Positions 24,926 to 50,364 of a stretch of DNA of 64,000 nucleotides are shown here, in pieces. The notes under the pieces were generated by a model. The model was not told the origin of the DNA. It worked only from the letters and a program-made list of their open reading frames with translations, and made no database searches. Positions within the stretch are counted from its first letter, which is position 1. Every line of letters begins with the position of its first letter. The stretch spans positions 7,806,001 through 7,870,000 of the forward strand of contig CP020563.1 in the NCBI GenBank assembly GCA_002082585.1. The letters run 5' to 3'. The position numbers and the translations under genes are program-made. This stretch comes from Kitasatospora albolonga. Its GTDB lineage: Bacteria; Actinomycetota; Actinomycetes; Streptomycetales; Streptomycetaceae.

Positions 24926-24927
24926 CG

Positions 24928-31334: not shown

Positions 31335-31355
31335 TGGCAATGGTTTCCATTTTCA
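31335..31355. promoter_or_regulatory. Zur box-like operator between rpmG and rpmB
   Basis: AT-rich sequence tggcaatggtttccatttt in an otherwise GC-rich genome. The dyad TGGCAAT-G-GTTTCCA (31335-31349) has five of seven matching pairs and fits the 7-1-7 plan known for Streptomyces Zur boxes. It sits in the 79-base gap between divergent rpmG and rpmB and could repress both when zinc is sufficient. The assignment is by pattern and context. Confidence 0.8.
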
Positions 31356-31400: not shown

Positions 31401-31637
31401 ATGTCCGCCCACTGCCAACTGACCGGCTCACGGCCGGGATTCGGCAACGCCATCTCCCACTCGCACCGCCGTACGTCACGCCGGTTCGACCCGAACGTCC
31501 AGCGCAAGCGGTACTGGCTCCCCGGTGAGGGCCGCCATGTGCGGCTGACCCTCAGCGCCCGGGCGATCAAGACGATCGACGTGATCGGCATCGAGGCCGC
31601 CGTCGCGCGCATCCGCGCCCGGGGAGGGAAGGTCTGA
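31401..31637 (+). CDS. rpmB: ribosomal protein L28, zinc-independent paralogue
   Basis: A 78-residue L28 from ATG 31401 (GGCAGG upstream): [38 protein letters not shown] and the helix [20 protein letters not shown]. Only one cysteine remains, so the CxxC zinc ribbon of the primary L28 is absent. Its stop overlaps the S14 start (TGATG), giving translational coupling. Confidence 0.94.
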
Positions 31638-31942
31638 TGGCGAAGAAGAGCAAGATCGCGCAGAACGAGAAGCGCAAGGCGACCGTCGAGCGGTACGCCG
31701 CCCGCCGGGCCGAACTGAAGGAGATCCTCCGCCGCCCCGGCACCCCGGAGGCCGAACGTGCCGCCGCTGTGGCGGAGTTGCGGCGCCAGCCGCGCGATGC
31801 CAGCGCCACGCGGGTGCGCAACCGGGACAGTGTGGACGGCAGGCCCCGGGGGTACCTGCGCACCTTCGGCCTCTCCCGGGTCCGGATGCGCGAGCAGGCG
31901 CACGCGGGGTTCCTGCCCGGAGTGACCAAGTCCTCCTGGTGA
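31637..31942 (+). CDS. rpsN: ribosomal protein S14, zinc-independent paralogue
   Basis: A 101-residue S14 ([60 protein letters not shown]). The long form without CxxC is the zinc-free type; the short Streptomyces S14 binds zinc. Coupled to rpmB by a one-base overlap and followed by a strong terminator. Confidence 0.96.
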
Positions 31943-33555: not shown

Positions 33556-33619
33556 GGCGTTCTCCTGGGGCTGGTCGGTGGGGCCGGGCTGCGCGGTGGG
33601 CGACCCCGGCCACTTTATT

Positions 33620-33638
33620 GGAAATGATAATCATGTGT
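33620..33638. promoter_or_regulatory. Zur box-like operator shared by propeller gene and metallophore importer
   Basis: The sequence ggaaatgataatcatgtgt contains the dyad AAATGAT-A-ATCATGT, six of seven pairs matching, with perfect core ATGATAATCAT. It is in the gap between the propeller gene (start 33555) and the lipoprotein gene (start 33729). It can control both directions. The box resembles Zur operators of actinobacteria; it is not an iron box. Confidence 0.82.
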
Positions 33639-33728
33639 AAGGTTCCGGTCTGTGGTGGGGACGGCTCCCGGGGCCCCGCCGTCACACCTGCTTCCCCCCG
33701 GGAGCGCACAGAACGTGAGGGACAGCCG

Positions 33729-34709
33729 ATGCCACGCACCGCACTGAGAGTCCGCCGCTGGGCCGCGATCGCCGTACTGGGAGGGCTGCTGGCCGGCTGC
33801 GGCACCGGCTCCTCCGACACCGGGTCCGAGGCGGTCGAACCGGCGGCCGGACCCCGTACGAGCACCGAGGTGCGGCCCATCGAGGCCGCCACCCGGATCA
33901 CCGACGCCAAGGGCGTCACGGTCTCCCTGAAGAAGCCCCCGCAGAAGATCGTCTGCCTGGTCGCCCTCTGCGACGACATCCTCGTCGAGCTGGGCCTGAC
34001 CCCCACCGCCACCAACTCCGCGGTGCTCGCGCACCCCGAGTTCCTGGGCAAGGAGAAGGCGGCGAAGGTCCCCGTCGTGCCCGGGGGCTTCCTCAGCCCC
34101 GAGGTCGAGGCGATCCTCTCCCACCGCCCCGACCTGGTGATCGGCCTGGCGGACACCCACGGCAAGCTCGCCCCCGCGCTGAAGGGCGCCACCACCTTCT
34201 GGCCCGTACAGCCCGGTTCCTGGCAGGACAGTGTCGGCTACCTGCGGGATCTGGCCGCGCTCACCGGGCGCACGGAGGAGGGCGAGAAGGCCGAGAAGAC
34301 GTTCCGCGCCCGGCTGGCCGAGGCGGAGGGGGCCAGGAGCGACAAGACATCGCTCATCATCTTCGGCAGCGACGAGAACTTCGGCGTGGCCACCCCGGAG
34401 ACCGATGTGGCGGCCGGACTCTTCCCGAAGATCTCCCACTACCCCTGGAAGAGCAGGGGCATCGACGGCTCGTACAGCCTGGAGGAGATCCTCGCCCGGG
34501 ACGTCGACGTCCTGTTCGTGGAGACGCTTTCCTTCGGCGCACCGGACGGCAAGCTCTCCGACAAGCTCGCCAAGAACCCGCTCTGGTCGCGGATTCCGGC
34601 GGTGAAGAACGGCAAGGTCATCGAGGTCGACTCCGAGGTCTGGGCCAAGGGCCGCGGCACCCGCTCCCTGGGCCTCGTCCTCGACGAGGCGACGGCCGCG
34701 CTGCGGTGA
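33729..34709 (+). CDS. metallophore-binding lipoprotein of zinc-type ABC importer
   Basis: A 326-residue FecB/TroA-fold protein. The start is ATG 33729 with GAGGGA upstream; earlier in-frame starts overlap the operator and are rejected. Lipobox LLAGCG anchors it at Cys23. Sequence ITDAKGVTVSLKKPPQKIVC, DDILVELGLTPTAT, HRPDLVIGLADTH and EILARDVDVLFVETLS match metal-chelate binding proteins rather than ZnuA, which would have a histidine-rich loop and chelating histidines. It should bind a metal-chelator complex. Its stop overlaps the next gene (GTGA). First gene of a four-gene importer under the Zur-like box. Confidence 0.88.
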   Translation: MPRTALRVRRWAAIAVLGGLLAGCGTGSSDTGSEAVEPAAGPRTSTEVRPIEAATRITDAKGVTVSLKKPPQKIVCLVALCDDILVELGLTPTATNSAVLAHPEFLGKEKAAKVPVVPGGFLSPEVEAILSHRPDLVIGLADTHGKLAPALKGATTFWPVQPGSWQDSVGYLRDLAALTGRTEEGEKAEKTFRARLAEAEGARSDKTSLIIFGSDENFGVATPETDVAAGLFPKISHYPWKSRGIDGSYSLEEILARDVDVLFVETLSFGAPDGKLSDKLAKNPLWSRIPAVKNGKVIEVDSEVWAKGRGTRSLGLVLDEATAALR

Positions 34710-36100
34710 CCGGCCGCACGGTGAAAGGCGGCGGGGACGACGGCCGTGTGGTGGACAGCGGCGCGGTCGGTGATCGTACGGTGGACGGCGGCGCGGCGAC
34801 CGGCCGTACGGCCAACGACCTGATAGGCAACGGCCTTGCGGTCAGCAGCCTTGTGGCGAAAGGCGGCCAGGCCGACGGCCTTACGGTGGATGGCGACGCG
34901 GTTGACGGTACGGCGGAGGGCTGCGCGGTTGACAGCCGTACGGCGAAGAGCGGCTCGCTCAACGGTCGTACGGCGGAGGGCGGCGTGCTCAACCGCCGTG
35001 CCGTGCCACGGCGGTTGCCCGTGGTGCCGGTCTGTCTGACGGTGGCGGCGGTGGTGAGCGCGGTGTGCGCCCTCAGCCTCGGTACGCCGTACGTCCCGCC
35101 CGCCCGGCTCCTCGCCACCCTGGGGTCCGACGGCCTCGCCGGGCTCGTCGTCACCGAACTGCGGCTTCCCCGCATGGTGTTGGCGCTGGTCGCCGGTGCC
35201 TGCCTGGGCGCCGCCGGACTGGTGCTCCAGGAGGCGCTGCGCAATCCGCTCGCCGTTCCGGAGATGCTCGGCGTCTCCTCCGGGGCCGCGCTGGGCGTGG
35301 CGGCACCGCTGGTGCTCGCCCTCTCCGTACCGCTCGGGCTCCAGCCCTTCCTGGCCCTGGCCGGGGCCGCGTTCGGCGGGCTGCTCACCCTCGTCGCCGC
35401 CGGGTTCGGGCGCAGCCCGTCGTCCGTGCTGCTGACCGGAGCCGCCGTCGCCGCCGCGCTCCAGGCCGGACTGCTGGTGCTCATGGTGATGGCCGACCAG
35501 CTCGACCTCCAGCTCATCTACCGCTATCTGCTGGGCAGTCTCTCCGCCCGGACCTGGGACGACGTCACCGGGCTGCTGCCCTGGCTGGCCGTCGCCGTAC
35601 CGGCGCTCGTGCTCTGTGTACCGGTGCTCGGCGTGCTGCGGCTCGGTGACGACGACGCCCGCGCGCTCGGCGTACGCGTCGAACGCGCGCGGGTCGCCGC
35701 GCTGGGCATCGCGGTCGTGCTGATCGCCCCCGTGGTGGCGGTCTGCGGCCCGGTGGCCTGGGTCGGCTTCCTCGCGCCCCACCTCGCCCGGCGGCTGAAG
35801 CCGGACGGCGGGGCGGCGGGCTGGCTCGTCCGGTCCGCGCTGTGCGGGGCGGTCGTGGTGCTCTGCGCGGACCAGCCCGCACGGCTGGCGCTCGCACCGG
35901 TCGAGACGCCCGTCGGCGCGTGGACGGCCCTGGTCGGGGTGCCGGTCGGGGTGGTGCTGCTGAAGCGGGGGCGGCGGCTCGCGGCGGGCCGGGGGCCGGT
36001 CCGGGGCGACCTGCCGGTCCAGGGCGGTCCGGACGGCCGGGGTGCCGGGGGCCGTGCAGCGGACGCGTCCGTGCCCCTCCTGCGGAAGGCGGAGCGATGA
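34706..36100 (+). CDS. FecCD-family ABC permease with N-terminal decapeptide repeats
   Basis: A 464-residue permease from GTG 34706, overlapping the lipoprotein stop. The core (about 105-430) is a BtuC-like domain: LRLPRMVLALVAGACLGAAG, QEALRNPLAVPEMLGVSSGA and VAWVGFLAPHLARRL. The first 100 residues are a hydrophilic region of ten-residue repeats (VDGGAATGRT-like) with no family match. A shorter start further in, closer to VPRRLPVVPVCL, is possible, but no good ribosome site was seen. The tail (432-464) is disordered. It pairs with the next permease to form the membrane channel. Confidence 0.88.
   Translation: MTGRTVKGGGDDGRVVDSGAVGDRTVDGGAATGRTANDLIGNGLAVSSLVAKGGQADGLTVDGDAVDGTAEGCAVDSRTAKSGSLNGRTAEGGVLNRRAVPRRLPVVPVCLTVAAVVSAVCALSLGTPYVPPARLLATLGSDGLAGLVVTELRLPRMVLALVAGACLGAAGLVLQEALRNPLAVPEMLGVSSGAALGVAAPLVLALSVPLGLQPFLALAGAAFGGLLTLVAAGFGRSPSSVLLTGAAVAAALQAGLLVLMVMADQLDLQLIYRYLLGSLSARTWDDVTGLLPWLAVAVPALVLCVPVLGVLRLGDDDARALGVRVERARVAALGIAVVLIAPVVAVCGPVAWVGFLAPHLARRLKPDGGAAGWLVRSALCGAVVVLCADQPARLALAPVETPVGAWTALVGVPVGVVLLKRGRRLAAGRGPVRGDLPVQGGPDGRGAGGRAADASVPLLRKAER
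34751..35005 (+). repeat. 30-bp in-frame repeat array at 5' end of permease gene
   Basis: Imperfect units of 30 bases, most ending in gtacg or tacggcg, start at 34751, 34781, 34811, 34841 (longer, 45 bases), 34886, 34916, 34946 and 34976. They encode decapeptides such as VDSGAVGDRT, VDGGAATGRT and VDGDAVDGTA. Reading-frame preservation suggests slippage or recombination tolerated by the protein. Confidence 0.8.
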
Positions 36101-37155
36101 GCGTCCTGGAGACCGCGCCCGGACCGGCCCGGCGGGCGTGGCACAGCTCCCCGGCCGTCCGGCTGGGTGCCCTGGGGGTGCTCGTGTGTGCCGTCGCCTG
36201 CGCGGACCTGTTCGCCGGGCGGGGGGTCACGGGCGACGGCGTACGGGCCGTCCTCCTCGGCGGCGGCGATCCCATGGCCGAACACATCGTCCTCCAACTC
36301 CGGCTGCCCCGGCTGCTGGTGGCACTGGTCGCCGGGGCGAGCCTGGGCGTCGCCGGGCTCGTACTCCAGTCGGCCCTGCGCAATCCGCTGGCCGGGCCCG
36401 AGGTCACCGGGGTCACCCCCGGCGCGGTCCTCGGTGCGGTCGCCGCCACCGGCCTCGGCCTGGCCGGCTGGGACTCCCCGGCAGCGGTCGTCGTGGCGGC
36501 CTGCCTCGGCGGGTTCGCGGGCGCCGGTCTGCTGTGGCTGCTCGCGGGGCGGGAGAAGGGCGACCCGGAGCAGACCGCCGTCTACGGAGTGCTGGTCTCG
36601 GCGGTCCTCGCCGGTCTCACCGCCGTCGTCCTCCTGGTGGCCCCGGGCGAACTCGGCAGCGTCGTCCAGTGGTTGATCGGCTCCACCGAGGGGCGGGTCT
36701 GGCAGCACTGGCACCTGCTGTGGCCATGGGCGGCGGTGTGGGGAGCCGCCGCCTGGCTGCTGGCCGCGCCGCTGACCCTGCTGCGCTGCGGTGACGAACA
36801 GGCGTCCGCCGCCGGTCTGGACCCGGGACGGGGCCGCGCCGCCGCGCTCGTGTGCGCGGTGGCCCTGACGGCTGGTGCGGTCTCGGCCGTGGGTGCCCTG
36901 GGGTTCGTCGGCCTGCTGGTGCCGCATCTGGCGCTGGCCGTCTTCGGCGCCGACCTGCGCATCACCCTGCCCGGCGCCGCGCTGCTGGGCGCCGCGGTGG
37001 TCTGCGGGGCGGACGCGGCGGCCCAACTGCTCTCCCGGCTGCTGGCCACGGCGCTCGACGCCGACCGGCTGACCCTGCCGGTCGGGGCGCTCACCACCTT
37101 CGTCGGGGCGGGGCTGCTGCTCGTCGTGGCGCGGCGAAGGGCGGACGAACGATGA
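36097..37155 (+). CDS. FecCD-family ABC permease, second subunit
   Basis: A 352-residue permease from ATG 36097, overlapping the previous stop (ATGA). The family motifs are LRLPRLLVALVAGASLGVAG, QSALRNPLAGPEVTGVTPGA and LGFVGLLVPHLALAV. Nine to ten helices are expected. Together with the preceding subunit it gives a heterodimeric metallophore channel, unlike the fused permease of the iron system at 22769-24925. The two systems are therefore separately evolved. Confidence 0.92.
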   Translation: MSVLETAPGPARRAWHSSPAVRLGALGVLVCAVACADLFAGRGVTGDGVRAVLLGGGDPMAEHIVLQLRLPRLLVALVAGASLGVAGLVLQSALRNPLAGPEVTGVTPGAVLGAVAATGLGLAGWDSPAAVVVAACLGGFAGAGLLWLLAGREKGDPEQTAVYGVLVSAVLAGLTAVVLLVAPGELGSVVQWLIGSTEGRVWQHWHLLWPWAAVWGAAAWLLAAPLTLLRCGDEQASAAGLDPGRGRAAALVCAVALTAGAVSAVGALGFVGLLVPHLALAVFGADLRITLPGAALLGAAVVCGADAAAQLLSRLLATALDADRLTLPVGALTTFVGAGLLLVVARRRADER

Positions 37156-38081
37156 CAGAGAGGGGGCCGGACATGGCCGCACGTACGGGAGACACCACGA
37201 CGGACGGGAGGAGCGGTACGGCGGCTCCACCGGACGGGAGCGCCCGGACCGCAGGAGCACCCGCCGCGGTCCGGGCGGAACGGCTCGGCTTCGGCTATCC
37301 GGGGCGCGAGGTGCTGCGCGGCATCGACCTGAGCATCGGCGCGGGCGAACTCGTCGCCCTCATCGGACTGAACGGCTGCGGCAAGAGCACCTTCCTCAAG
37401 CTCGCCGCCGGACTGCTCGCGCCGAGCGGGGGCCGGGTGCTGCTCGACGGGGACGACGCGGCCCGCCTGCCCAGACGCGCCGCCGCCCGCCGCGTCGCGC
37501 TGCTCCACCAGTCGGCGCCCGCCGTACCGGCCCTGACCGTACGGCAGTTGGTGCGGCAGGGCCGGTACGCCACCCGGGGCCCGCTCGGGATGCTGCGGGA
37601 CGGCGACGACGAGGTGGTGGCCCGGGCGCTCGCGGACGTCGGCGTCACCGGCTGGGCGGACCGCCCGGTGGACGCGCTGTCGGGCGGTGAGCGCCAACGG
37701 GTGCGCCTCGCGATGGCGTTGGCGCAGGACGCCCCGCTCCTCTTCCTGGACGAGCCCACCACCTATCTCGATCTGCGGCACCAGCTGGAGGTGCTCCAGA
37801 CCGTCGTACGGCTGCGCGCCGAGCGGCGGCTCACGGTGGTGATGGTGCTCCACGACCTCAACCACGCGGCGCGGTTCGCCGACCGGATCGTCGCGCTGCG
37901 CGAGGGCCGCATCGCCGCCGACGGGCCTCCCGGGGAGGTGGTCACCGAGCGGCTGCTCGCCGAAGTCCTCGGCGTACGGGGGCGGGTGGGGGCCGACGCC
38001 GAGGGCGGCTGGCCCGTCTGTTACCCAGATCACCCTCTCGACCCGCTCCAGCTCTTGCGGAATGAAAATCATATTCATTAG
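37152..38081 (+). CDS. metallophore ABC transporter ATPase; 3' end forms a Zur box
   Basis: A 309-residue FecE-like ATPase from ATG 37152 (ATGA overlap). Walker A is IGLNGCGKST, Q-loop LLHQSAP, signature LSGGERQR, Walker B PLLFLDEPTTYLDLRHQ, H-loop VLHDLNHAA. The last residues NENHIH are encoded by aatgaaaatcatattcat, the operator described separately. The C-terminal histidines may thus be a by-product of operator sequence. Last gene of the importer unit. Confidence 0.93.
   Translation: MTERGPDMAARTGDTTTDGRSGTAAPPDGSARTAGAPAAVRAERLGFGYPGREVLRGIDLSIGAGELVALIGLNGCGKSTFLKLAAGLLAPSGGRVLLDGDDAARLPRRAAARRVALLHQSAPAVPALTVRQLVRQGRYATRGPLGMLRDGDDEVVARALADVGVTGWADRPVDALSGGERQRVRLAMALAQDAPLLFLDEPTTYLDLRHQLEVLQTVVRLRAERRLTVVMVLHDLNHAARFADRIVALREGRIAADGPPGEVVTERLLAEVLGVRGRVGADAEGGWPVCYPDHPLDPLQLLRNENHIH
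38061..38079 (+). promoter_or_regulatory. Zur box-like operator for the RiPP operon, inside the ATPase 3' end
   Basis: The 19-mer aatgaaaatcatattcatt contains the dyad TGAAAAT-C-ATATTCA (38063-38077), six of seven pairs matching, extended by AA/TT. This is the best Zur-type palindrome in the window. It covers the last six sense codons of the ATPase gene and the first base of its stop, and lies 68 bases before the peptide start. It would control the peptide gene and the downstream enzymes separately from the importer. Confidence 0.85.
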
Positions 38082-38146
38082 TGTCTGTAGTGCGGCACCG
38101 AACGGCGCCGCACCCACCCATCCGATCCGAATGGAGGCTTCAACTC

Positions 38147-38281
38147 ATGGAGCACAACAAGGTGTTCAGCCCGATCGCCGACCAGGGCCAGCTCGCCCAC
38201 CTCTCCGCCACCCACTCGAACGCCCTCGTCGAGAACCCCTTCGACGACGCCGTCGAGGCCGACACCGCGGACGAGAAGTAA
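38147..38281 (+). CDS. 44-residue RiPP precursor peptide candidate
   Basis: ATG 38147 follows a good GGAGG at 38133-38137. The peptide is N-terminally MEHNKVFSPIADQGQLAHLS and continues ATHSNALVENPF, then an acidic tail DDAVEADTADEK. It has no cysteine; possible heterocyclised residues are Ser8, Ser20, Thr22, Ser24 and Thr40. The stretch HLSATHS alternates Ser/Thr with His18 and His23, a plausible metal-binding core once oxazole rings form. There is no Cys for thiazoles and no signal peptide. It is the first gene after a Zur-like box and immediately before RRE/E1-like, YcaO and SagB genes. Which part is leader, core or follower is unknown. No known precursor family was recognised. Confidence 0.82.
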   Translation: MEHNKVFSPIADQGQLAHLSATHSNALVENPFDDAVEADTADEK

Positions 38282-38287
38282 GCGGCA

Positions 38288-38356
38288 CCTGCCGCTGAGG
38301 CAGGCTCCCGCTCCTCGCGCGGCGGGCCCGTCCGGGTGAACCCCCGGGCGGGCCCG
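38288..38356 (+). terminator. hairpins between precursor gene and E1-like gene (attenuator candidate)
   Basis: First a small hairpin (38288-38293 with 38299-38304), then a 14-bp stem at 38323-38336 and 38343-38356 with a 6-base loop and one G-U pair. No long T-run follows, so read-through is likely. In other RiPP operons a hairpin after the precursor gene makes the peptide more abundant than the enzymes; the same is inferred here. Confidence 0.75.
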
Positions 38357-38407
38357 TCCCGTTCGCACCGCACGACCCCTCCCGTACCGAGCCCCTCGGA
38401 GGCCCCT

Positions 38408-39253
38408 GTGAACCGCAGCCGACTCGCCCCCGGCGCCGGGATCGTCACCGTCCCCGGTGACCGGCCCGTACTCCGCACCTCCGAAGGGGAGTTCCTGCGG
38501 ATCGACACCGGCCGCGCCGACCCCGGGGAACTGGTGGACCGGCTGACAGCGGGGGAGGGGGAGCGGCCGCACTCCGATGAACTCGACCGTCTGATAGCGG
38601 CGTTCGAGGAGGCCGGACACGCGGTGACCGGTCCCCGCCGCCCGCCGCTCACCGGGCGGGCGGTCCACCTCCTGGGCGACCCCGTGCTCACCGGACCGCT
38701 GTCCCGGTCCGCCGCGGCGGAAGGAGCCGAGGTCCACCCCGCCACCGCCGATGACGTGGCCCGGCTCGCGGGGAAGCGGAACACCGCCGTGGTCTGGTGC
38801 CTCGACTCGCCCGTCCCCGAAGGGCTGTGGACCGCCGCCGACCGGTTGCCCGCACGGCACACCGCCTGGCTGCGCTGCCACCGCGAAGGCGCCCACACCT
38901 GGATCGAACCCCTCGCCTCGGCCCCGGGCGACATCACCTCCGCCCACGTACGCCTCCGCAGACTCGCGGCGACCGCCGCCCACCGCGAACTCGCCGCCTA
39001 CTGGGCCGGCCACCGCACCCCCGACACCGGCCCGCACCCCACCGAGGCATCCGCCGCCCTGATCGCCGCGCTGCTCACCGCCGACCTGATCGCCTGGGCG
39101 AACGGCGAACCGCCCCGGGGCGCCACCGCCCTCCCCGCCCGCCGCCGACTGCGCCGGGTCGACCTGCGCGACCTGACCGTCACCGAACACCCCGTCCTCC
39201 CCGTACCGGAGGTCGCCCCGCTGCCCCTCCCCGTAACCCGGGCGAAGGCATGA
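38408..39253 (+). CDS. RRE/E1-like partner protein of a YcaO cyclodehydratase (TOMM C protein)
   Basis: A 281-residue protein from GTG 38408 with GGAGG 7 bases upstream. Residues 1-75 look like a RiPP recognition element (winged helix: PGAGIVTVPGDRPVLRTSEG, then DELDRLIAAFEEAGHAV). Residues 85-260 look like a reduced E1/ThiF-like domain (RAVHLLGDPVLTGPLSR; TWIEPLASAPGDITSAHVRL). In known TOMM C proteins the segment after GP-x-V holds a CxxC pair for structural zinc; here that stretch has no cysteine. The only cysteines are 131 and 157. It should bind the precursor and present it to YcaO. Its stop overlaps the next start (ATGA). Confidence 0.78.
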   Translation: MNRSRLAPGAGIVTVPGDRPVLRTSEGEFLRIDTGRADPGELVDRLTAGEGERPHSDELDRLIAAFEEAGHAVTGPRRPPLTGRAVHLLGDPVLTGPLSRSAAAEGAEVHPATADDVARLAGKRNTAVVWCLDSPVPEGLWTAADRLPARHTAWLRCHREGAHTWIEPLASAPGDITSAHVRLRRLAATAAHRELAAYWAGHRTPDTGPHPTEASAALIAALLTADLIAWANGEPPRGATALPARRRLRRVDLRDLTVTEHPVLPVPEVAPLPLPVTRAKA

Positions 39254-41064
39254 ACGCCGCTCCGCGCGAGGACGAGCGCGTCACCGCCGCTTCCCGCGAG
39301 GGTGAGCGCGTTACGGCTGCTCCTCGTGACGGTGAGCGCGTCACCACCGTTCCCCTTGACGGCAAGCGCGTGACCACCGCCGAGCGTACGCCCGACGGCA
39401 CGAGCACCGCCCGGCGAGCAGATGGGCGCGGTGCGACCGGTGCCCCGGACGCATCCGCGCACCCCGCACCCACCCACCACACGGCCCGAGGCATGAACAC
39501 CGCCCTCCGGGCCGGTACGCCAGCGAGCCCCGCCACCGTGCGCATCCCCGCCCCCGACGGCACCCCGCTCGCCACCGACCTCTGCCTCCCGGACACGCCG
39601 GGCCCCCATCCCGCCGTGGTGATCCGGACCCCCTACGGCCGCACCGCCCACCGCGCCGAGCTGCGCGGCTGGGCGGCCCACGGGTTCGCCGCCCTGGCCC
39701 AGGACGTACGCGGACGGCACGGCTCACCCGGCCTCTGGCACCCCTACCTGGACCACGAGGAGGGCGATGGCGCCGCGACCGTCGCCTGGGTGCGCGCGCA
39801 GGCGTGGAGCGTCGGCCGGGTCGTCGCCGTCGGCTCCTCCTACGCTGCCCACTGCGCCCTCGTCACCGCGCTCGGCGCCCCCGGCGACGGTCGGCCGGAC
39901 GCCGTCATCGCCGCCGTCCCCGCCCTCGGCCTCGCCGAGACCGCACGGGAACCGGCAGGGCCCGAACGGCTGTGGGCCCGGGCCGGCTGGTGGGCCGCGC
40001 ACGGCGACCGCCCCGACTCCGCGCCGGACGCGCTGGACCGTGCCCTCGCCGACGACCCCGGACTCCTGGAGCACCTCCCGGTCACCCGGCTGGCCGACCG
40101 CCTGGGCCGTGAACTGCCCTCCTGGCCCGGCCTCTGGGACGACTGCCGACGCGGCCGGACCGTTCTGCGGGGCTCCGCCGCCCGCCTGCCGCTCCTCGCC
40201 GTCGGCGGCACCCGCGACCCCTTCGCCGAGGACACCGTGGCGCTCTGGCGCGGCTGGGGCGGCCCCGCCCGTCTGCTGCTCGGCCCGTGGGGCCACCGCC
40301 TCACCGCCGACCGGCCGCTGCTCCCGCCCGATCGTGTCAACCTGGGTGCGCTGTACGTACGGTGGGCCCGCGCCGCCCTCGCCGGACGCCTGGAGCCCGA
40401 GCGGCGCGGGGTCATCACCCTGGGTGGCAGCGGCCGTTGGCACCGCGTCCAGGCGGACGGCACCCGCCGGGCGGAGGGCGCTTCGGCCCGGACCGCCACC
40501 TGGGCCTTCGACGCCCCCAACGGTCTGCGGCTGCTGCACGGCGGGGAGTTCACCGCCGACCCGGCCCGTCCGGTCCGCTCCGACGACCTGACCGTCCCGG
40601 CCCCGGCCGACGGCACCCCCGCCGACCGCTGCCTCCTCCTCTCCCCGCCCCTGCCCCGCCCGCTCGACCTGGCCGGACCCGCCACCGCCCGGTTCCACGC
40701 CACCGCCGACACTCCCGCCGCCGACTGGGCCGTCCGCCTCACCGCGCTCGACCCGGCCGGCCGCGCGGAGCCCCTCGCGTTCGGCATCGTCCGGCGTTCC
40801 GGCCCGCCGGGGGAGGCCGCGGAGATCACCGTGCCGCTCGGCACCCTGGGCCGCCGCCTGCCCGCCGGAACCCGGCTGCGCACGGAGATCGCCGGACACC
40901 ACTTCCCCGCCCACGCCCGCAACCCGCACACCGGGGAGAACCCGGTGACCGCCACCCGCCTCGCCCCGTCCCGCCGCGCCGTCACGGCCCGCGGCGGCGC
41001 CCTGCACCTGACCGCCGTCGCCCGGCGTCGCTACGTCGAGCCCGTACCGGAGATATGCCGTTGA
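39250..41064 (+). CDS. CocE/NonD (S15-type) hydrolase in RiPP operon
   Basis: A 604-residue alpha/beta hydrolase. The N-terminal 45 residues are a repeat region; the catalytic domain starts near residue 95. Motifs are RTPYGR, QDVRGRHGS, nucleophile elbow GSSYAAH (Ser197), LAVGGTRDPFAEDT (Asp) and LLGPWGHRL (His). The C-terminal jelly-roll domain (about 400-600) is typical of X-prolyl dipeptidyl peptidases and cocaine esterase. No signal peptide. Position between E1-like and YcaO genes with ATGA overlaps suggests a tailoring or leader/follower-removing role. An internal ATG at 39493 is a possible alternative start. Confidence 0.87.
   Translation: MNAAPREDERVTAASREGERVTAAPRDGERVTTVPLDGKRVTTAERTPDGTSTARRADGRGATGAPDASAHPAPTHHTARGMNTALRAGTPASPATVRIPAPDGTPLATDLCLPDTPGPHPAVVIRTPYGRTAHRAELRGWAAHGFAALAQDVRGRHGSPGLWHPYLDHEEGDGAATVAWVRAQAWSVGRVVAVGSSYAAHCALVTALGAPGDGRPDAVIAAVPALGLAETAREPAGPERLWARAGWWAAHGDRPDSAPDALDRALADDPGLLEHLPVTRLADRLGRELPSWPGLWDDCRRGRTVLRGSAARLPLLAVGGTRDPFAEDTVALWRGWGGPARLLLGPWGHRLTADRPLLPPDRVNLGALYVRWARAALAGRLEPERRGVITLGGSGRWHRVQADGTRRAEGASARTATWAFDAPNGLRLLHGGEFTADPARPVRSDDLTVPAPADGTPADRCLLLSPPLPRPLDLAGPATARFHATADTPAADWAVRLTALDPAGRAEPLAFGIVRRSGPPGEAAEITVPLGTLGRRLPAGTRLRTEIAGHHFPAHARNPHTGENPVTATRLAPSRRAVTARGGALHLTAVARRRYVEPVPEICR
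39265..39384 (+). repeat. four in-frame 30-bp repeats at 5' end of hydrolase gene
   Basis: Units at 39265-39294, 39295-39324, 39325-39354 and 39355-39384 encode REDERVTAAS, REGERVTAAP, RDGERVTTVP and LDGKRVTTAE. The repeat precedes the conserved domain and is probably disordered. Confidence 0.85.
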
Positions 41065-42428
41065 CCAGCCCCCTGCCCATCGAAGCCCTGGTCGACCCCG
41101 TCTGCGGGGTGATCCGAGGAGTCGCCCCCGTCGAGCACCCCGCCGGGGCGCCGCCCCGCTACACCGCGATGACCGCCGAGGTCGCCGACGCCCGCCGCCT
41201 CGGCGCCTGGCCCGCCGACCGGGTCTCGCTCGGCACCACCTTCGGCGACCCCGCGGGCGCCTGGATCGCCGCCGTCGCCGAGGCCGTGGAGCGCTACTGC
41301 GGCAACCGCGTCCCCCCGCCGGGCCACCCGGGCGCACCCCGGCACGCCACGGCCGCCGAACTGGAGGCCGAGGGACTGCGGTTGTACGGGCCCGGGGCGC
41401 TGCCCTCGTACGCCTCCTGGCAGCACGAGCGCCCCCGCTTCCCGTACACCGGACTCGCTCCCGACACCCCGGCCCTGTGGACACCGGGCACCGAGAACGG
41501 GGAGCCCTGCTGGGCTCCCGTATCCCTCACCCACCTCAACTGGCGCCAGGGCGAACTGCGTTCGCTGCCGCGCACCCACCACCTCAACTACGCGGGCATA
41601 GCCACCGGCCAGGGCTTCGACGACGCCGTGGAGCGGGGGCTGCTCGAAGTCGTGGAGCGCGACGCCCTGGAGCTCTGGTGGCACCTGGACGGCCCCACCC
41701 GGGGCATCGACCCGGCGAGCGTTCCCGGCCTCACCGAGGACCTGGCCGGAGCCGAACTCGACGTCCACATCGTGGAGATGCCCTCCGAGTTCGCCCCCTG
41801 CATGGCCGCCCTGGTCCACGACTCCCGGCGCGGCATCCATGCCGCCGGGTTCGCCTGCCGCTACGACCCGGCGGAGGCGGCCCGCAAGGCGGTCCTGGAG
41901 GCCGTGCACACCTGGGTGTTCACCCAGGGCGCGGTGGACGCCGACGGCTGGGTCCACCGCTCCGTCGAGGCCGGTCTCTTCGCCCGGGGCCTCTACCTGG
42001 ACCACCGGGCCGACCGGCGCTATCTCGACGACTGCGGACCGCAGTTCGCGGCCGTGCGGGACCTCGGCGCCCATGTGCAGGTCTGGCTCGACGACCGGAT
42101 GGCACCGCTGGCCCGCCGCTTCACCGAACCGGCCGCCGGTGTCGTCCCCGTCACCGAGGCCGCCCCCGGCAGCCGGTCCGCCCTCGACGCGGCGCTCGCC
42201 GCCGGGGGCCACCGCGTGATCACCGTGGACCTGACGACCGAGGACATCGCCGAGACCTCCCTGCGCGTCGCCCGCGTCCTGGTCTCCGGCCTCATCCCCA
42301 ACGCCCCCGCCGCCTTCGCCTACTTCGGCTGCCCGCGCTTCGCCGAAGCCGCGCTCGAACGGGGCTGGCGCACCCAACCCCCCACCGGACCGGCGGACTT
42401 CACCCTCGCACCGCCGCCGCACATGTGA
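41055..42428 (+). CDS. YcaO-family cyclodehydratase (TOMM D protein)
   Basis: A 457-residue YcaO enzyme from ATG 41055, overlapping the hydrolase by 10 bases. The ATP-binding motifs of YcaO are present: AVAEAVERYCGN (Glu76, Glu79), GIATGQGFDDAVERGLLEVV (181-200) and ERDALELWWH (201-210). YcaO enzymes use ATP to activate backbone amides so that Ser, Thr or Cys side chains cyclise into azolines; some make thioamides or amidines instead. With a separate RRE/E1-like partner and no TfuA, azoline formation is the most likely reaction. The C-terminus is proline-rich (LAPPPHM), similar in spirit to azoline-forming YcaOs. No zinc site seen. Confidence 0.93.
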   Translation: MPLTSPLPIEALVDPVCGVIRGVAPVEHPAGAPPRYTAMTAEVADARRLGAWPADRVSLGTTFGDPAGAWIAAVAEAVERYCGNRVPPPGHPGAPRHATAAELEAEGLRLYGPGALPSYASWQHERPRFPYTGLAPDTPALWTPGTENGEPCWAPVSLTHLNWRQGELRSLPRTHHLNYAGIATGQGFDDAVERGLLEVVERDALELWWHLDGPTRGIDPASVPGLTEDLAGAELDVHIVEMPSEFAPCMAALVHDSRRGIHAAGFACRYDPAEAARKAVLEAVHTWVFTQGAVDADGWVHRSVEAGLFARGLYLDHRADRRYLDDCGPQFAAVRDLGAHVQVWLDDRMAPLARRFTEPAAGVVPVTEAAPGSRSALDAALAAGGHRVITVDLTTEDIAETSLRVARVLVSGLIPNAPAAFAYFGCPRFAEAALERGWRTQPPTGPADFTLAPPPHM

Positions 42429-42442
42429 AGGAGCGCGCCCGT

Positions 42443-43903
42443 ATGACCCAGGCTCCTCCGTCGGCTTCCGGCCTCCCGGCCCGCGCTCTCGCCGCTGCCC
42501 GATCACCCCGCGTGCCGCGCACGGTTCCGTATGTGCCGGAGCGCGCCTTCCCCTGGGGCGGCCCGGGGCTGCCCCTGGAAGGGGCCGGGGGAGCGGTGGA
42601 CCTGGACCGTGCCCTGCGGCTCTCCCTCGCCGCGCCCCGGAAGGCGGGCGACCGGCTGCGGCCCGTCCCCTCCGCCGGTGCCCTCCACCCCGTACGGGCG
42701 CACCTTCTCCTCGGCCCCGGCTGTCCGTTGCCGCCCGGGCGGTACGCGTACGACCCCCGCGCCCACCGCGCCCACCGCCGTGGACCGGCGCCCGCCGACG
42801 CGCCCCCGGGTGCCGTGGTCGTCCTCACGGTGACCGCCACCCGTACGGTCGCGCACTACGGACACCGCGCCTGGCCGCTGCTCCTCCTGGACGCGGGCCA
42901 TGCCGCAGCCGCCCTCGCGCTCGCCGCCGCCCCGGGTGAAGTGAGGGTCTGCCTCGACGCGGACGGCGCCGGGCTCGCGGCCGCGGCGGGACTGCCCCGA
43001 GCCGCCGAGTGGCGGCACGAGTGGCCGGGTGCCGAGCCCGAACTCCCGCTCGCCGCAGCCTGGTTGGTGCCCGAAGGGACACCCGTCACTCCCTGTCGCC
43101 CGCTGGCCGCCTGGGCCGCCCAACCGCCCGGAGCCGCCCCGGTTCCGCGACCGGGCGCCGAGACCGCCCCGCCCCGCGAACCCGCCCCCGTACGCCGTCT
43201 GCGTGAACCCGCCTCCGTACGAAACCTGCGCGAACTCGCCTCCGTACGCCATCTGTTGGACCACCTGGCGGCGGCACCCGGCCGGGCCGATGGCACCTGG
43301 TACCCGGCCCGCCGTCCCGTTCCCCTGACGGACGACGACCTCCGTACGCGAAGGAGCGCGCCCCCCTCCGACCTGACCCACCCGCCCGCCCCGGACCTGC
43401 TCGCCCGGGTCCTGGCCACCGCCGGGGAAGCCCGGCCGGACGGTCCCGCCTGGGCCGCGGCGGTCGGCGGCGACACCCCGGGGCTCCTCACGGCGGCCGG
43501 TACCCTCGCCTCCGGCGACGCGCGCCCCACCCTCGCCCGCTGGGCGGCGGGCCAGCGGTGGATCGCCACGGCCGGTGCGGTACTGGTCGCCCACGGCTGC
43601 CCCGCCGACGCCCCACCGGCCGTGATCCGCGGCAGCCACCTCGCCGCCGGTTACGCGGCCGGTGCCGCCCAGGCCCACGCCACCGCGCTCGGGCTCCGCT
43701 CGCGCCCCATCGGCTCCTGGCAGCAGGCCGACCTCGGCGCCGCGCTCGGCGAGACCCCCGGACACGACTGGATCGTCCACGGCCTGGCCCTCGCCGGACC
43801 ACCCACGCCGACCTCACGCACCACAGCTGCCCCCACCCCCTCCGCACGACCGGACCACCGCCAGGCCCCACCGGCCCCGCCGGGCAAGGAAGAACGCCCA
43901 TGA
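42443..43903 (+). CDS. SagB-type azoline dehydrogenase (nitroreductase fold)
   Basis: A 486-residue protein, long for the family, with two nitroreductase-like halves. The first has the FMN/substrate motif RPVPSAGALHPVRAHL (PSAGALHP, 76-83). The second (about 350-475) has ARWAAGQRWIATAGAVLVAH and HATALGLRSRPIGSWQQADL, the flavin-binding helix pattern. A linker of nine-residue repeats (REPASVRNL) joins them. SagB enzymes oxidise oxazolines or thiazolines to oxazoles or thiazoles using FMN. It therefore predicts aromatic azoles in the product; without cysteine in the precursor these would be oxazoles. ATGA overlap with the next gene. Confidence 0.85.
   Translation: MTQAPPSASGLPARALAAARSPRVPRTVPYVPERAFPWGGPGLPLEGAGGAVDLDRALRLSLAAPRKAGDRLRPVPSAGALHPVRAHLLLGPGCPLPPGRYAYDPRAHRAHRRGPAPADAPPGAVVVLTVTATRTVAHYGHRAWPLLLLDAGHAAAALALAAAPGEVRVCLDADGAGLAAAAGLPRAAEWRHEWPGAEPELPLAAAWLVPEGTPVTPCRPLAAWAAQPPGAAPVPRPGAETAPPREPAPVRRLREPASVRNLRELASVRHLLDHLAAAPGRADGTWYPARRPVPLTDDDLRTRRSAPPSDLTHPPAPDLLARVLATAGEARPDGPAWAAAVGGDTPGLLTAAGTLASGDARPTLARWAAGQRWIATAGAVLVAHGCPADAPPAVIRGSHLAAGYAAGAAQAHATALGLRSRPIGSWQQADLGAALGETPGHDWIVHGLALAGPPTPTSRTTAAPTPSARPDHRQAPPAPPGKEERP
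43175..43255 (+). repeat. three in-frame 27-bp repeats in SagB-like gene linker
   Basis: Units at 43175-43201, 43202-43228 and 43229-43255 encode REPAPVRRL, REPASVRNL and RELASVRHL. They are placed between the two nitroreductase-like halves. Confidence 0.88.
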
Positions 43904-45639
43904 TGCTCCACCCCGAACTCCTGCGCGCCGCCCGGACCGCCCGCCGCCCCCTCGGCCTGGCCACCGCGCTGCTCGCCCTGGTCACCCTCACCCATCTCGC
44001 CCAGGCCGTCCTGCTCGCGGTCGTCCTCTCCCGGATCGCCCACGGCGACACAGCCGACCTCGCACCGCTCCTCCTCTCCGTGCTCGCCGTCGTCCTCGTC
44101 CGCGCCGCGCTCGGCCGCGCCCAGCGCCTGACCGCCGTCAGCGCCGGGGCCGCCGTCCGCATCCGGCTCCGCGACACCCTGCTGAGCCGCCTCGGCGAAC
44201 TCGGGCCCACCGCTGTCACCGGCGCGCGGGCCGGAGCCGTACGCGCCACGCTCGTCGACGGCGTCGAAGGGGTGGACGCGTACGTCTCCCGCTACCTCCC
44301 CCAGGCCCTCATCACCTGCGCCGCCCCGCCCCTGCTGCTCGTCGCCGTCGCGCTCGTCGAGCCGTACGCGGCCCTTGTCCTGGGCCTCGCCCTGCTGCTC
44401 GCGATCTTCGGACCGCGCTGGTGGGACCGGCTGCTCGACCGGCGCGGCAAGGAGCACTGGGACTCCTACGAAGCCCTCGCCGCCGACTACCTGGAAGCTC
44501 TCCAGGGCATGGCCACCCTGCGCGCCGCCGGGGCGGTGGGCCGCGTACGGGAACGGCTGGAGAGGCGTTCGGCGGCGCTCCACCGCGCGACCGTCGCCAA
44601 GCTCCGGGTCTCCCTGGTCGACACCGGCCTCACCGACCTCGCCGTCCAGGGCGGCACCGTGGCCGCCGTCCTGGTGGCGTGCTCCTCGGCGGCCACCGGA
44701 CGCACCGCCACCACCGGGACGTACCTCCTGCTCCTGCTCGCCTCCGAGTGCTTCCGCCCCGTCCGCGATCTCTCCCGCGAATGGCACGCGGGCTATCTCG
44801 GGGTCTCGGCCGCCGACGGCATCGCCGCCCTGCGCACCGCCGAACCCGCCGTCGCCGACCGGGGGAGTGCGCTCGCCCACTGGGACACCGCCCCCGAAGT
44901 CCGCTTCGAGGACGTGCACTTCACCCACCCCGGGGCGGATCGCCCGGCCCTGGACGGCGTCACCTTCACCGCACCCGCCGGGCGCACCACCGCGATCGTC
45001 GGCCCCTCCGGCGCCGGGAAGTCGACCCTGCTGAGCCTCCTGCTGCGCGGGCGCGACCCCGACACCGGCCGCGTCACGATCGCGGGGACCGAGACCGCCG
45101 CGTACACGCTCGCCTCGCTGCGCCGGGGCATCGCCGTCGTCTCGCAGGAGACGTACCTCTTCCACGCCACGATCGCCGAGAACCTGCGCATCGCCCGCCC
45201 CGCCGCCACCGACGCCCACCTGCGCGCCGCCGCCCGGGCGGCGGGCATCGACCAGGAGATCACCGCGTTCCCGCAGGGGTACGCCACCCTCGTCGGCGAA
45301 CGCGGCGCCACGCTCTCCGGCGGCCAGCGCCAACGGCTCGCCCTCGCCCGCGCCCTCCTCGCCGACGCCCCCGTCCTGATCCTGGACGAGGCCACGAGCG
45401 CGGTGGACGAGCGCGGCGAGGCACGGATCGTACGGGAGCTGACGGCGGCGAGCCGGGGACGCACCTGCCTCGTCGTCGCCCACCGGCTCGACGCCGTACG
45501 CCACGCCGACCACATCGTCGTCCTCGACGGCGGCCGGGTCGAGGCGTCCGGCGACCACAGCGGACTGCTCGCGGGCGGCGGCGTCTACGCCGCGCTCGTC
45601 GCGGCAGGCCGCACCGCCCATGAGGAGCCCGCCGCATGA
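43900..45639 (+). CDS. ABC exporter half-transporter (CydD-like) of RiPP operon
   Basis: A 579-residue membrane-ATPase fusion. Membrane domain residues 1-320 with about six helices; ATPase domain with Walker A VGPSGAGKST, Q-loop VVSQETYLFH, signature TLSGGQRQR, Walker B PVLILDEATSAVD and H-loop VAHRLDAV. The sequence layout resembles CydD. It has no C39 peptidase domain, so it does not process the peptide. It forms a heterodimer with the next product. Export of the modified peptide is likely. Start ATG 43900 overlaps the SagB-like stop; ATG 43903 is equivalent. Confidence 0.9.
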   Translation: MMLHPELLRAARTARRPLGLATALLALVTLTHLAQAVLLAVVLSRIAHGDTADLAPLLLSVLAVVLVRAALGRAQRLTAVSAGAAVRIRLRDTLLSRLGELGPTAVTGARAGAVRATLVDGVEGVDAYVSRYLPQALITCAAPPLLLVAVALVEPYAALVLGLALLLAIFGPRWWDRLLDRRGKEHWDSYEALAADYLEALQGMATLRAAGAVGRVRERLERRSAALHRATVAKLRVSLVDTGLTDLAVQGGTVAAVLVACSSAATGRTATTGTYLLLLLASECFRPVRDLSREWHAGYLGVSAADGIAALRTAEPAVADRGSALAHWDTAPEVRFEDVHFTHPGADRPALDGVTFTAPAGRTTAIVGPSGAGKSTLLSLLLRGRDPDTGRVTIAGTETAAYTLASLRRGIAVVSQETYLFHATIAENLRIARPAATDAHLRAAARAAGIDQEITAFPQGYATLVGERGATLSGGQRQRLALARALLADAPVLILDEATSAVDERGEARIVRELTAASRGRTCLVVAHRLDAVRHADHIVVLDGGRVEASGDHSGLLAGGGVYAALVAAGRTAHEEPAA

Positions 45640-47876
45640 CACCGCCCGAGCCCACCGGGGCCCGTACGACCCCGTCCGACCTCGACCCCGGCGGGGACGG
45701 CAGGACACCGCCCGGCCTCGGCCTCGCCGGGGACGGTACGACCCCGCCCGACCCCGGCCCCGTCCGGGACCGTACGGCTTCGGCGGAGGCCGAGCCCGCC
45801 CCCGACCGCCACCGCCCGGCCCTGCCGGAGGTCCGCCCCGCCCGGGACCGTACGCATGCGCCCGCAAGCGGCCCCGCCCCCGCCCCCGACCGGCACCGTG
45901 CTGCCTCCCCGGAGGCCGCCCCCGCCCAGAACCGTCCGCTCTTGTCCGCGCGTGGGCCCGAGCCCGTTCCGGTACCGGTGGCACCGGCCTCTCCCCGGAC
46001 GTCCGCACCCGAGAACACCCCCGCCCCCGCCCCCCACCACACCGGCGCCCTCCGCTCCCTCCTTCCCGTCCTCGGCGCCCACCGCCTCACCGTCCTGCGC
46101 ACCTGCCTGGCCGCCCTCGTCGATCAGGCGGCCCTCGTCGCCCTGGTCACGCTCGCCGCGCACACCGTGGGGACGGCGGTGATCGCGCACCGGCCCCCGT
46201 CGGCCGGGACCGTCGCCGTCCTCATCGGGCTCGTCCTGCTCCGGGCGCTCGCGACCTGGCGGGAGATGGACCTCTCGCACGACCTCGCCTACCGGGTCCT
46301 GGCCGTGCTCCGGGTCCGGGTCTTCGACGGGCTCGCCCGTTCCGCCCCCGCCCGGATCGCGGGGCGCCGCAGCGGTGACCTCGCCTCGACCGCGCTCGCC
46401 GACGTGGAGGCGCTGGAGTTCTTCTACGCCCACGCCATCGCCCAGCTCCTCGCCTCGGGCCTCGTCTTCGCGGTGGCCGCCGCCGTCCTGGGCGTCCTCG
46501 GCCCCTGGCTGCTCCTCGCCGTCGTGCCCGCCGCCCTGCTGCTCCTGTGGTCACCCCTCCTGGAGGCGCGGGGCCGGGCCGTGCGCGGGGCGCGGACCCG
46601 GGCCGCTCTCGCCGAACTCTCCGCGCAGAGCGTGGAGACCGTCGACGGCCTCCGCGAGCTGCTGGCGGCGGGCGCCCTGGACCGTACGCGGGCCCGGCTG
46701 CGGTCCGGCGGCCGGCGGCTGGCCCGTGCCCAGCGCGCCGAACAGTCCTGGGAGACGGGGGCGGGCGCGGCCCGTGACCTGCTCGTCGTCGCCGCCGTCA
46801 TCGGGGTGGTCGCGGCAGCCGCCCACGCGGCGAGCGGCGGGCGGCTCGACGGCGCCTGGGCCCCGGCGGCGATGGCCCTCGCCCTCGGCGCCCTGGCCCC
46901 GGTGGCCGAATCGGCGGCCGCGCTGGGCCGGGCGGGCACCCTGCGCGCCGCCGCCGCCCGGGTCCGCGCGGCCCTCGACGCCCCGGCCGGGGCCCCCGCC
47001 CCCGCCGCCCCGCTGCCCGCCCCGGCGGGCCCGCTCGGCCTGCGGCTGCGCGGCGTACGGTTCGGGTACGGGGCCGACCCCGTCCTGGACGGCTTCGACC
47101 TGACTGTACGGCCGGGTGAGACGGTGGCCCTCGTCGGCGCCTCGGGGGCGGGCAAGTCGAGCTGCGCCCACCTCGTGGCCCGCTACTGGGACCCGCAGGA
47201 GGGAACGGTCGAGCTGCTTCCGGAGGGCCCGGCCCGCCCCGTCGACCTGCGGGATCTCGCGGAGGAGGATCTGCGGGCCGCCGTGTGCGTGGTCGGCCAG
47301 GAGGCCCCGCTCTTCCACGGGACCCTGGCCGAGAACCTCCGCCTCGCGGCTCCCGCCGCCACCGACCGGGAGCTCGCCGCCGTCGTCCGCCTGTGCGGCC
47401 TCACCCCCGTCACCGACGCCCTGCCCCACGGGCTGGACACCCCGGTCGGCGAACGCGGCGCGACCCTCTCCGGAGGCCAGCGGGCCCGGGTCGCCCTGGC
47501 CCGGGGGCTGCTCGGCCGCCCCCGGGTGCTCGTCCTGGACGAGACGACGGCCCACCTGGACCACCGGGGCGACGCGGAGCTCGCGCAGGCGCTCGCGGCC
47601 GGCTCCGAGACCCGTACGACACTGATCATCGCCCACCGCCCCGCCACCGTCCGCAGGGCCGACCGCATCGCGGTCCTGGAGGGGGGACGCATCGTGGAGG
47701 AAGGCACCTGGGACGAGCTGATCCGGGCGGGCGGCGCGCTGACCCGGCTGCTCAACCGGGAGGGGGAGTCCCGGGAGGAGCCCCGGGAACAGCCCCGGAC
47801 GGGGAGTCGGACGGAGGACCGGGCGGAGACACCGGCCCCGGCCCCGGCGTCGGCAGATTCTGCTCCGCCCAGATGA
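45636..47876 (+). CDS. ABC exporter half-transporter (CydC-like) with disordered N-terminal extension
   Basis: A 746-residue membrane-ATPase fusion from ATG 45636 (ATGA). Residues 1-130 are a proline/arginine/aspartate-rich extension with recurring PDRHR and RDRT units and no fold. The membrane domain is about 135-430. The ATPase has Walker A VGASGAGKSS, Q-loop VVGQEAPLFH, signature TLSGGQRAR, Walker B VLVLDETTAHLD and IAHRPATV. DETT in place of DEAT is compatible with catalysis. The C-terminal tail overlaps the convergent SpoIIE-type gene by 125 bases. Partner of the CydD-like subunit. Confidence 0.9.
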   Translation: MTPPEPTGARTTPSDLDPGGDGRTPPGLGLAGDGTTPPDPGPVRDRTASAEAEPAPDRHRPALPEVRPARDRTHAPASGPAPAPDRHRAASPEAAPAQNRPLLSARGPEPVPVPVAPASPRTSAPENTPAPAPHHTGALRSLLPVLGAHRLTVLRTCLAALVDQAALVALVTLAAHTVGTAVIAHRPPSAGTVAVLIGLVLLRALATWREMDLSHDLAYRVLAVLRVRVFDGLARSAPARIAGRRSGDLASTALADVEALEFFYAHAIAQLLASGLVFAVAAAVLGVLGPWLLLAVVPAALLLLWSPLLEARGRAVRGARTRAALAELSAQSVETVDGLRELLAAGALDRTRARLRSGGRRLARAQRAEQSWETGAGAARDLLVVAAVIGVVAAAAHAASGGRLDGAWAPAAMALALGALAPVAESAAALGRAGTLRAAAARVRAALDAPAGAPAPAAPLPAPAGPLGLRLRGVRFGYGADPVLDGFDLTVRPGETVALVGASGAGKSSCAHLVARYWDPQEGTVELLPEGPARPVDLRDLAEEDLRAAVCVVGQEAPLFHGTLAENLRLAAPAATDRELAAVVRLCGLTPVTDALPHGLDTPVGERGATLSGGQRARVALARGLLGRPRVLVLDETTAHLDHRGDAELAQALAAGSETRTTLIIAHRPATVRRADRIAVLEGGRIVEEGTWDELIRAGGALTRLLNREGESREEPREQPRTGSRTEDRAETPAPAPASADSAPPR

Positions 47877-50322: not shown

Positions 50323-50364
50323 GCACCTCACCACCATCTCTAGGTTTCCATGGTCGCGCGTCAC

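Follow-up and report, generated by a model that had tools for sequence, protein, structure and literature searches.

Gene content of the ami locus

The window analysed here, a stretch of 64,000 nucleotides of Kitasatospora albolonga CP020563.1 (7,806,001–7,870,000) in whose positions all coordinates are given, contains a gene cluster for a ribosomally synthesized and post-translationally modified peptide (RiPP) together with an importer. Judged from its sequence, this locus is a streptamidine (ami) cluster, a family already published in 2021 (PMC8442711, MIBiG BGC0002115), as its amiA precursor passes the NF040714 model. The full ami set (amiF1–amiF4, amiA, amiB, amiC, amiD, amiE, amiT1 and amiT2, amiX being optional in the family) is present.

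The importer genes open the plus-strand series: amiF1 (33729..34709) encodes a lipoprotein solute-binding protein (PF01497, 73 bits), whose nearest solved chains are mostly siderophore- or iron-compound-binding proteins; amiF2 (34706..36100, start codon uncertain) and amiF3 (36097..37155) encode FecCD permeases (PF01032, 228.5 and 228.2 bits, respectively), and amiF4 (37152..38081) encodes the importer ATPase (PF00005, with FecE/FhuC-like NCBIfam matches below cut-off). There follow, on the same strand, amiA (38147..38281) for the 44-aa precursor MEHNKVFSPIADQGQLAHLSATHSNALVENPFDDAVEADTADEK with its core HLSATH, amiB (38408..39253) for an RRE/E1-like partner (TIGR03882, E 1.8e-4, below cut-off), amiC (39250..41064, start possibly at 39493) for a CocE/NonD hydrolase (PF02129, PF08530, TIGR00976), amiD (41055..42428) for a YcaO cyclodehydratase (PF02624, 135.7 bits) and amiE (42443..43903) for a SagB-like dehydrogenase (TIGR03605, E 1.4e-11, below cut-off). 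The series ends with amiT1 (43900..45639) and amiT2 (45636..47876), encoding CydD-like and CydC-like ATP-binding cassette (ABC) proteins of exporter fold (TIGR02857, 379 bits for a cut-off of 435; TIGR02868, 290 bits for a cut-off of 329). Divergent from amiF1, amiX (32290..33555, minus strand) encodes a beta-propeller protein; it shares the first of two Zur dyads with amiF1 and is counted as part of the ami system. An earlier reading of this DNA (hereafter the original prediction) had announced an importer and a RiPP operon in this order, with mostly overlapping junctions; indeed, every part is present, and seven of the ten junctions overlap, by 4–10 bases.

The N-terminal extension of the amiF2 open reading frame (34706–35000) consists of repeated short units (VKGGGDDGRVVDSG...), the real start being probably further in, and amiC opens with a comparable repeated stretch (39250–39492). 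Over the stretch compared, amiX through amiD (amiE, amiT1 and amiT2 lying outside it), the proteins of S. albidoflavus NRRL B-1271 (L164) share 69–84% identity with those of the window, AmiB being at 69%.

The precursor scores 70 bits against the NCBIfam model NF040714, ‘streptamidine family RiPP’ (cut-off 40), and its core is identical to that of streptamidine, with one Ser, one Thr and no Cys. Streptamidine itself is azole-free; it contains a six-membered amidine, and its Ser and Thr are unmodified (PMC8442711). An azole product of the linear azole-containing peptide or thiazole/oxazole-modified microcin type (LAP/TOMM) was rejected on the grounds of this core and of the azole-free product of the published orthologue. 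The original prediction, which had proposed an azole RiPP of a kind not yet described, is thus unsupported in its chemistry as well as in its novelty, streptamidine having been described in 2021 (PMC8442711).

The loci of this family fall into a motif-A kind, of which 53 Streptomyces loci and 13 others were examined for their cores, and a motif-B kind. In Streptomyces, the 51 correctly cut cores (from 53 loci) read H-[L/D/A/Q]-S-[A/P]-[T/S]-H, with SNALVENPF coming after the core; a core was obtained in 12 of the 13 other motif-A loci, two of which (L086 and L087) display the form HSAGH. The two His are kept in all 63 motif-A cores obtained (from 63 of 66 loci), while position 2 varies between L, D, A and Q, and the seven motif-B precursors retain one His per repeat. 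This conservation is compatible with metal ligands and is no demonstration of binding. AmiE is essential though streptamidine shows no oxidation, a larger oxidised product might have been cleaved, and ALV was suggested as a recognition sequence by the 2021 authors (PMC8442711). The conserved NALVENPF fits either a recognition sequence or a larger product.

Zur boxes and promoter position

The Zur consensus tGaNNatSatNNtCa was derived from chromatin immunoprecipitation on microarrays (ChIP-chip) of S. coelicolor Zur (PMC5472717), independently of the ami family, and its 11 specified positions were scored. Two Zur boxes are predicted from the sequence of the cluster: TGGAAATGATAATCA between amiX and amiF1 (33619..33633), which matches at 10/11 positions, and TGAAAATCATATTCA in the last codons of amiF4 (38063..38077), the box of amiA, which matches at 11/11. 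The Zur-like dyad announced before each unit is therefore present in both cases; one further site of at least 10/11 exists in the window, at 60286.

The search for the same locus in other genomes, suggested with the original prediction, retrieved precursors in 50 of the 392 genomes of the genus, giving a first set of 50 loci, made up of the window and 49 fetched ones. For each gene, the best site in the 250 bases upstream was compared with tiles elsewhere in the same loci. A box of at least 10/11 precedes amiF1 in 44 of 49 loci and amiA in 44 of 50; among 3492 background tiles, two reach this score. At amiF1, the exceptions score 9 (L036, L039, L064), 8 (L084) or 7 (L056, whose contig begins near the gene), and one locus (L063) is without amiF1; at amiA, they score 9 (L062, L071, L080) or 8 (L060, L068, L083). 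The second set, i.e. the best 80 named loci scanned over 150 bases upstream, overlaps with the first in its species and is thus not independent of it. Loci that were cut or lacked the gene could not be assessed (12 for amiF1, 6 for amiA); among the others, 67/68 for amiF1 and 65/74 for amiA reach 10/11, and 71/74 for amiA reach at least 9/11. The boxes of S. albidoflavus NRRL B-1271, of the species studied in 2021, score 10/11 and 11/11. The znuA gene of the window genome (L105, 9984–11030; PF01297, 262 bits) displays a 10/11 box ending at its start codon, and no site of at least 10/11 was found at the other YcaO loci of this genome (L001–L003, L005).

At one mismatch, the consensus retrieves approximately 100 sites across the window genome (8 Mb), versus 15 for the reversed pattern. 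A match alone is hence of little weight, and the case is carried by conservation and by promoter position. When 630 permuted palindromes were scored as a control, the Zur motif was level with the best for amiF1 (47/48) and fourth for amiA (47/50; best 49).

As regards position, TANNNT follows the amiA box after one base (43 loci) or two (one locus) in all 44 loci with a strong box, for 52 of 7524 background positions; at amiF1, it lies within six bases of the box in 34 of 44 loci, for none of the 7524. In the window, the amiA box sits between TTGCGG (38055–38060) and a −10-like TAGTGT (38079–38084), and the amiF1 box is accompanied by a −10-like TAAGGT at 33638, with the same spacing in relatives; a scan for the strict sigma-70 consensus gave no site. 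Of 70 named loci, 60 have the amiA box wholly within the end of amiF4, and in the other 10 the box overlaps that end. A Zur dimer bound at such a box would block the polymerase.

A class-wide search of 394 genomes detected NF040714 in 19 of them (18 above cut-off; six of this genus, 13 from eight other genera) and NF040715 in seven, which belong to a single other family and have motif-B-like precursors. In the non-Streptomyces clusters, a site of at least 9/11 within 150 bases before the precursor exists in 12 of 20, against 58 of 2538 tiles. With ami boxes far above the background tile rates in both comparisons, chance dyads were rejected as an explanation. In six of the seven motif-B clusters, the dyads display a shifted spacing (e.g. 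CCTATTGGAAATGGTTTCCATCTTCAATAAGG in L100). A motif-B pattern was drawn by eye from the motif-B ami boxes, so that its hits on them are circular; it gives 6–16 matches per genome (both strands) versus 0–1 per strand when reversed. Genes were looked for at 12 of the pattern loci, and ten proteins from seven of these were scanned. Sites precede or touch the znuA start in three of the seven motif-B genomes (L225, L231, L234) and the start of a FUR-family gene in one of the seven (L220); among the loci examined, no matching Zur target was assigned to the remaining sites. In L099, L102 and L103, the importer too has such sites before it. One motif-B ami locus (G716, C38 near amiA, L104) contains several Zur-like sites, one of them approximately 150 bases upstream of the amiA box. 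Outside motif B, L085 (G468) has three precursor copies across two contigs (C1, C5), the copy examined being without a visible Zur box.

Because of the conserved boxes, their placement in promoters and the like boxes before znuA in three motif-B genomes, the ami cluster is very probably under Zur control, and the zinc regulation originally predicted from one locus thereby gains support from sequence comparison across many. Zur control of the streptamidine cluster is unreported in the literature searched: the word ‘Zur’ is absent from the main text of PMC8442711, no link of Zur or a zincophore to streptamidine or a RiPP was recognised among the titles and abstract starts listed, and the one other paper naming both streptamidine and zinc has, in the portion consulted, the cluster in a table and zinc in connection with thiolutin.

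Importer linkage and genomic neighbourhood

A FecBCDE-type importer is present in 48 of the 49 fetched Streptomyces ami loci. AmiF1 was found in 54 of the 392 genomes, 49 with a precursor and five without, and a single precursor genome (L063) is without AmiF1. As the genes are linked and the genomes related, and hence not independent, a Fisher test of this association was not taken as proof. The presence of AmiF1 in 49 of 50 precursor genomes, together with the importer-only relatives, sustains the claim that the cluster has its own importer. In other genera, the importer is rearranged to the amiX side, downstream or upstream, and the linkage persists.

Several relatives appear to have retained uptake without biosynthesis. 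In L264 and L266, amiF1–amiF4 run directly into amiT1–amiT2; amiA–amiE are absent, the amiF1 box is kept at 10/11 and there is no amiA box. These two loci keep amiF4 without its tail once amiA is gone, which disfavours coding constraint on that tail as the origin of the amiA box. In L268, amiF1–amiF4 and amiT1–amiT2 are arranged as in producers and both boxes are present; the precursor is reduced to its tail, and amiB and amiD are partial. In L265, the contig ends after part of amiF3, behind an 11/11 amiF1 box. In L096, from another genus, an internal stop interrupts the precursor frame, whose score falls slightly short of the cut-off; no amiB, amiC or amiD was detected in the stretch, and amiX matches in its two end parts only. 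Retained in L096 are the solute-binding protein (72% to L092), the permease and the ATPase, T1 and T2, together with a box of 11/11. A search for AmiD (E 1e-10) in six genomes, those of the five importer-only loci and of L096, found none in five; in the genome behind L268, the match is limited to residues 223–457, the C-terminal half.

In a midpoint-rooted tree of AmiF1 and AmiF3, L268 stands among producers (node supports 0.52–0.89), and the L264/L266 pair stands beside a producer clade (0.93), inside a larger clade with more producers (0.97). Because these importer-only branches sit among or beside producers, loss of biosynthesis seems likelier than its ancestral absence. At least three lineages would thus have lost or broken biosynthesis and kept uptake, T1/T2 and the Zur box, the pattern expected of users of others’ metallophores. 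As non-producers keep T1 and T2, these proteins are presumably not solely an exporter of the cell's own peptide: of the exporter named in the original prediction, the ABC exporter fold stands and the role is uncertain.

Upstream of the cluster, on the amiX side, lie paralogues of ribosomal proteins S18 (29399–29641), L31 (30843–31097), L33 (rpmG, 31157–31321), L28 (rpmB, 31401–31637), S14 (31637–31942) and L32 (32028–32198), and a gene for a CobW-like protein (29689–30846). The zinc-free ribosomal set reported beside the cluster is therefore real, with the qualification that five of the six paralogues are without Cys and that L28 has one; all of these genes lie within 4.4 kb of amiF1. A Zur-like dyad with three mismatches, detected on both strands, lies between the rpmG and rpmB paralogues (31335..31355), and in S. 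coelicolor the promoter of rpmG/B is under Zur regulation (PMC5472717). By eye, AT-rich dyads around the L28/S14 genes (3.3-kb stretch) are seen in five of 11 motif-A genomes, with none seen in the other six. When loci of at least 19 kb are counted, 31/126 have a zinc-free-type S14 near ami: 12 of the 44 sampled Streptomyces loci, 19 of the 63 named ones and none of the 19 remaining loci. This neighbourhood, found in a minority of loci, is thus not general. Neither these ribosomal genes nor importer-only relatives are mentioned in the portions of PMC8442711 cited here.

A second siderophore-type importer is encoded further upstream (22772–25054, minus strand), as a frame of 761 aa in which FecCD (PF01032, 495 bits) is matched twice; no Zur-like site of at least 9/11 exists within approximately 3.9 kb of it. 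At the other end, a gene for a PAS/GAF/SpoIIE phosphatase (47752–50364, minus strand) converges on the cluster, its frame overlapping the end of amiT2.

Proposed role and known systems

The product and the genes required for it are established in S. albidoflavus, and its discoverers had proposed metal import from the Fec genes (PMC8442711). Taken together, membership of the Zur regulon, the importer and the importer-only relatives make a role in zinc acquisition the simplest reading, and we consider such a role likely. When zinc is plentiful, Zur would cover the promoters of amiX/amiF1–amiF4 and of amiA–amiT2 and keep both off. Under zinc starvation, AmiA would be made, and AmiB, AmiD, AmiE and AmiC would convert HLSATH to an amidine peptide with two conserved His. 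The product would then leave the cell and be re-imported, most probably in the form of a zinc chelate, by the FecBCDE-type AmiF1–AmiF4; handling of the released zinc or of the peptide may fall to AmiX, and AmiT1/AmiT2 may recycle or translocate the peptide. This whole explanation, in which the streptamidine cluster is a Zur-regulon unit for peptide-based zinc scavenging with re-uptake, is the one that we favour, with some confidence; whether the streptamidine-type peptide is itself the zincophore is an evenly balanced question. More tentatively, at somewhat less than even probability, Zur control would extend to motif-A and motif-B lineages alike, the uptake system for the peptide would be common to producers and non-producers, and the hexapeptide that was isolated may represent only part of the actual chelator, given that conservation continues through NALVENPF and the essential dehydrogenase leaves streptamidine unmarked.

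A number of observations weigh against the zinc-scavenging explanation. By liquid chromatography–mass spectrometry (LC-MS), streptamidine showed no binding to iron, cobalt, copper, magnesium, manganese, nickel or zinc, the amiD (YcaO) mutant showed no metal-starvation phenotype, and fermentations gave a substantial yield where Zur might be expected to repress (PMC8442711). The negative zinc-binding test may miss binding, as LC-MS solvents are usually acidic and can strip zinc, and the amiD-mutant test strain, if like the window genome, would possess ZnuABC. Deletion of amiF1–amiF4 abolishes streptamidine production (PMC8442711), which is odd for a pure re-uptake system; as the predicted amiA promoter lies within the 3' end of amiF4, this deletion may also remove that promoter, which could explain the published importer requirement. 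Among the genomes, L063 (G121) has amiX, amiA–amiE (amiE part-matched), amiT and a 10/11 amiA box with no amiF1–amiF4 nearby, and L267 (G184) has a partial importer and no box. Eight of the 20 non-Streptomyces clusters are below 9/11 before amiA, namely L085 and L088 (score 7; no box visible by eye in L085) and six of the seven motif-B clusters (6–8). For the same set, the control with 630 permuted palindromes ranks the Zur motif third (12/20), two permutations reaching 13; these two share most letters with the Zur motif, and the test therefore supports a palindrome of the Zur kind, not its exact spelling. Finally, AmiX has no sequence relation to the zinc chaperone AztD by NCBIfam (no match) or hhalign (probability 2.7%), its likeness to AztD being one of beta-propeller fold: AztD is the best structural match by Z, and by Foldseek E-value it takes second place behind an S-layer propeller.

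Some of these observations would suit a zinc-starvation signal or developmental factor, imported by AmiF for sensing or recycling, rather than a chelator. Indeed, metal binding and a starvation phenotype went undetected, the discoverers, who call the role of streptamidine unknown, suggest signalling or development (PMC8442711), and Zur control alone does not imply chelation. Such a function nevertheless seems unlikely given an importer of siderophore type and two His that stay constant while position 2 varies, as fits metal ligands. The importer might also take up another zinc chelate, the peptide pathway sharing only the regulon and AmiF and AmiT being linked by co-regulation, not by substrate; the existence of importer-only genomes, and of the producer L063 without an adjacent importer, would then be readily understood. 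However, the linkage survives rearrangement of gene order across genera, and AmiF1 and the precursor occur together in 49 genomes versus six with one of the two, which makes this decidedly unlikely.

Two ABC systems and control by zinc starvation could be expected of a peptide that starves or harms competitors at low zinc, as nutritional warfare or as an antibiotic, with transporters protecting the producer; as no antibacterial or antifungal activity was found (PMC8442711), we hold this to be very improbable. Scarcely credible at all is an azole (thiazole/oxazole) RiPP zincophore of undescribed type, which the YcaO and SagB-like genes had brought to mind, the orthologue product from an identical core having an amidine ring and unmodified Ser and Thr.

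Streptamidine is widespread and its function was not found by its discoverers; conserved Zur control directs the question to zinc shortage, a role that tests would miss where the medium is rich in zinc or ZnuABC is intact. If our explanation is true, these peptides would form a ribosomal zincophore family and, with importer-only relatives using it too, the peptide would serve soil actinomycetes as a common good. The locus as such is of a known kind: the S. albidoflavus J1074 ami cluster has the same genes and the same HLSATH core, without essential difference in gene content (PMC8442711). The functional claim, for its part, would make an orphan peptide family a zinc system that can be put to the test.

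Among known zinc systems, the AztABCD importer with its chaperone AztD resembles the ami system through AmiX in fold only. AmiX has no sequence homology to AztD and, by eye, no signal peptide, and its membership of the AztD family is unsupported by sequence; its His 43, 91, 157, 195, 311, 380 and 404 are invariant or nearly so, and are possible candidates for a three-His zinc site in a central pore. Seven actinobacterial proteins beside AztA-type ATPases (L282, L283, L286, L287, L292–L294) are apparently divergent AztD: all keep a DHxDHxHYY motif, and the two that were scanned match the model of the AztD chaperone weakly, with 71 and 64 bits for a cut-off of 400.

Methanobactin, a copper-binding RiPP, would be a precedent for a ribosomal metallophore; it differs from the ami system in its metal, in its oxazolone/thioamide ligands and in its enzymes. 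In Streptomyces, a parallel in regulation is the S. coelicolor cluster SCO7676–7682, whose product we take to be coelibactin. This cluster is a Zur-controlled zincophore biosynthetic cluster (PMC5472717), and the likeness lies in Zur-controlled biosynthesis in Streptomyces; coelibactin, however, is non-ribosomal (PMC3430247), whereas the ami peptide is ribosomal and YcaO-modified.

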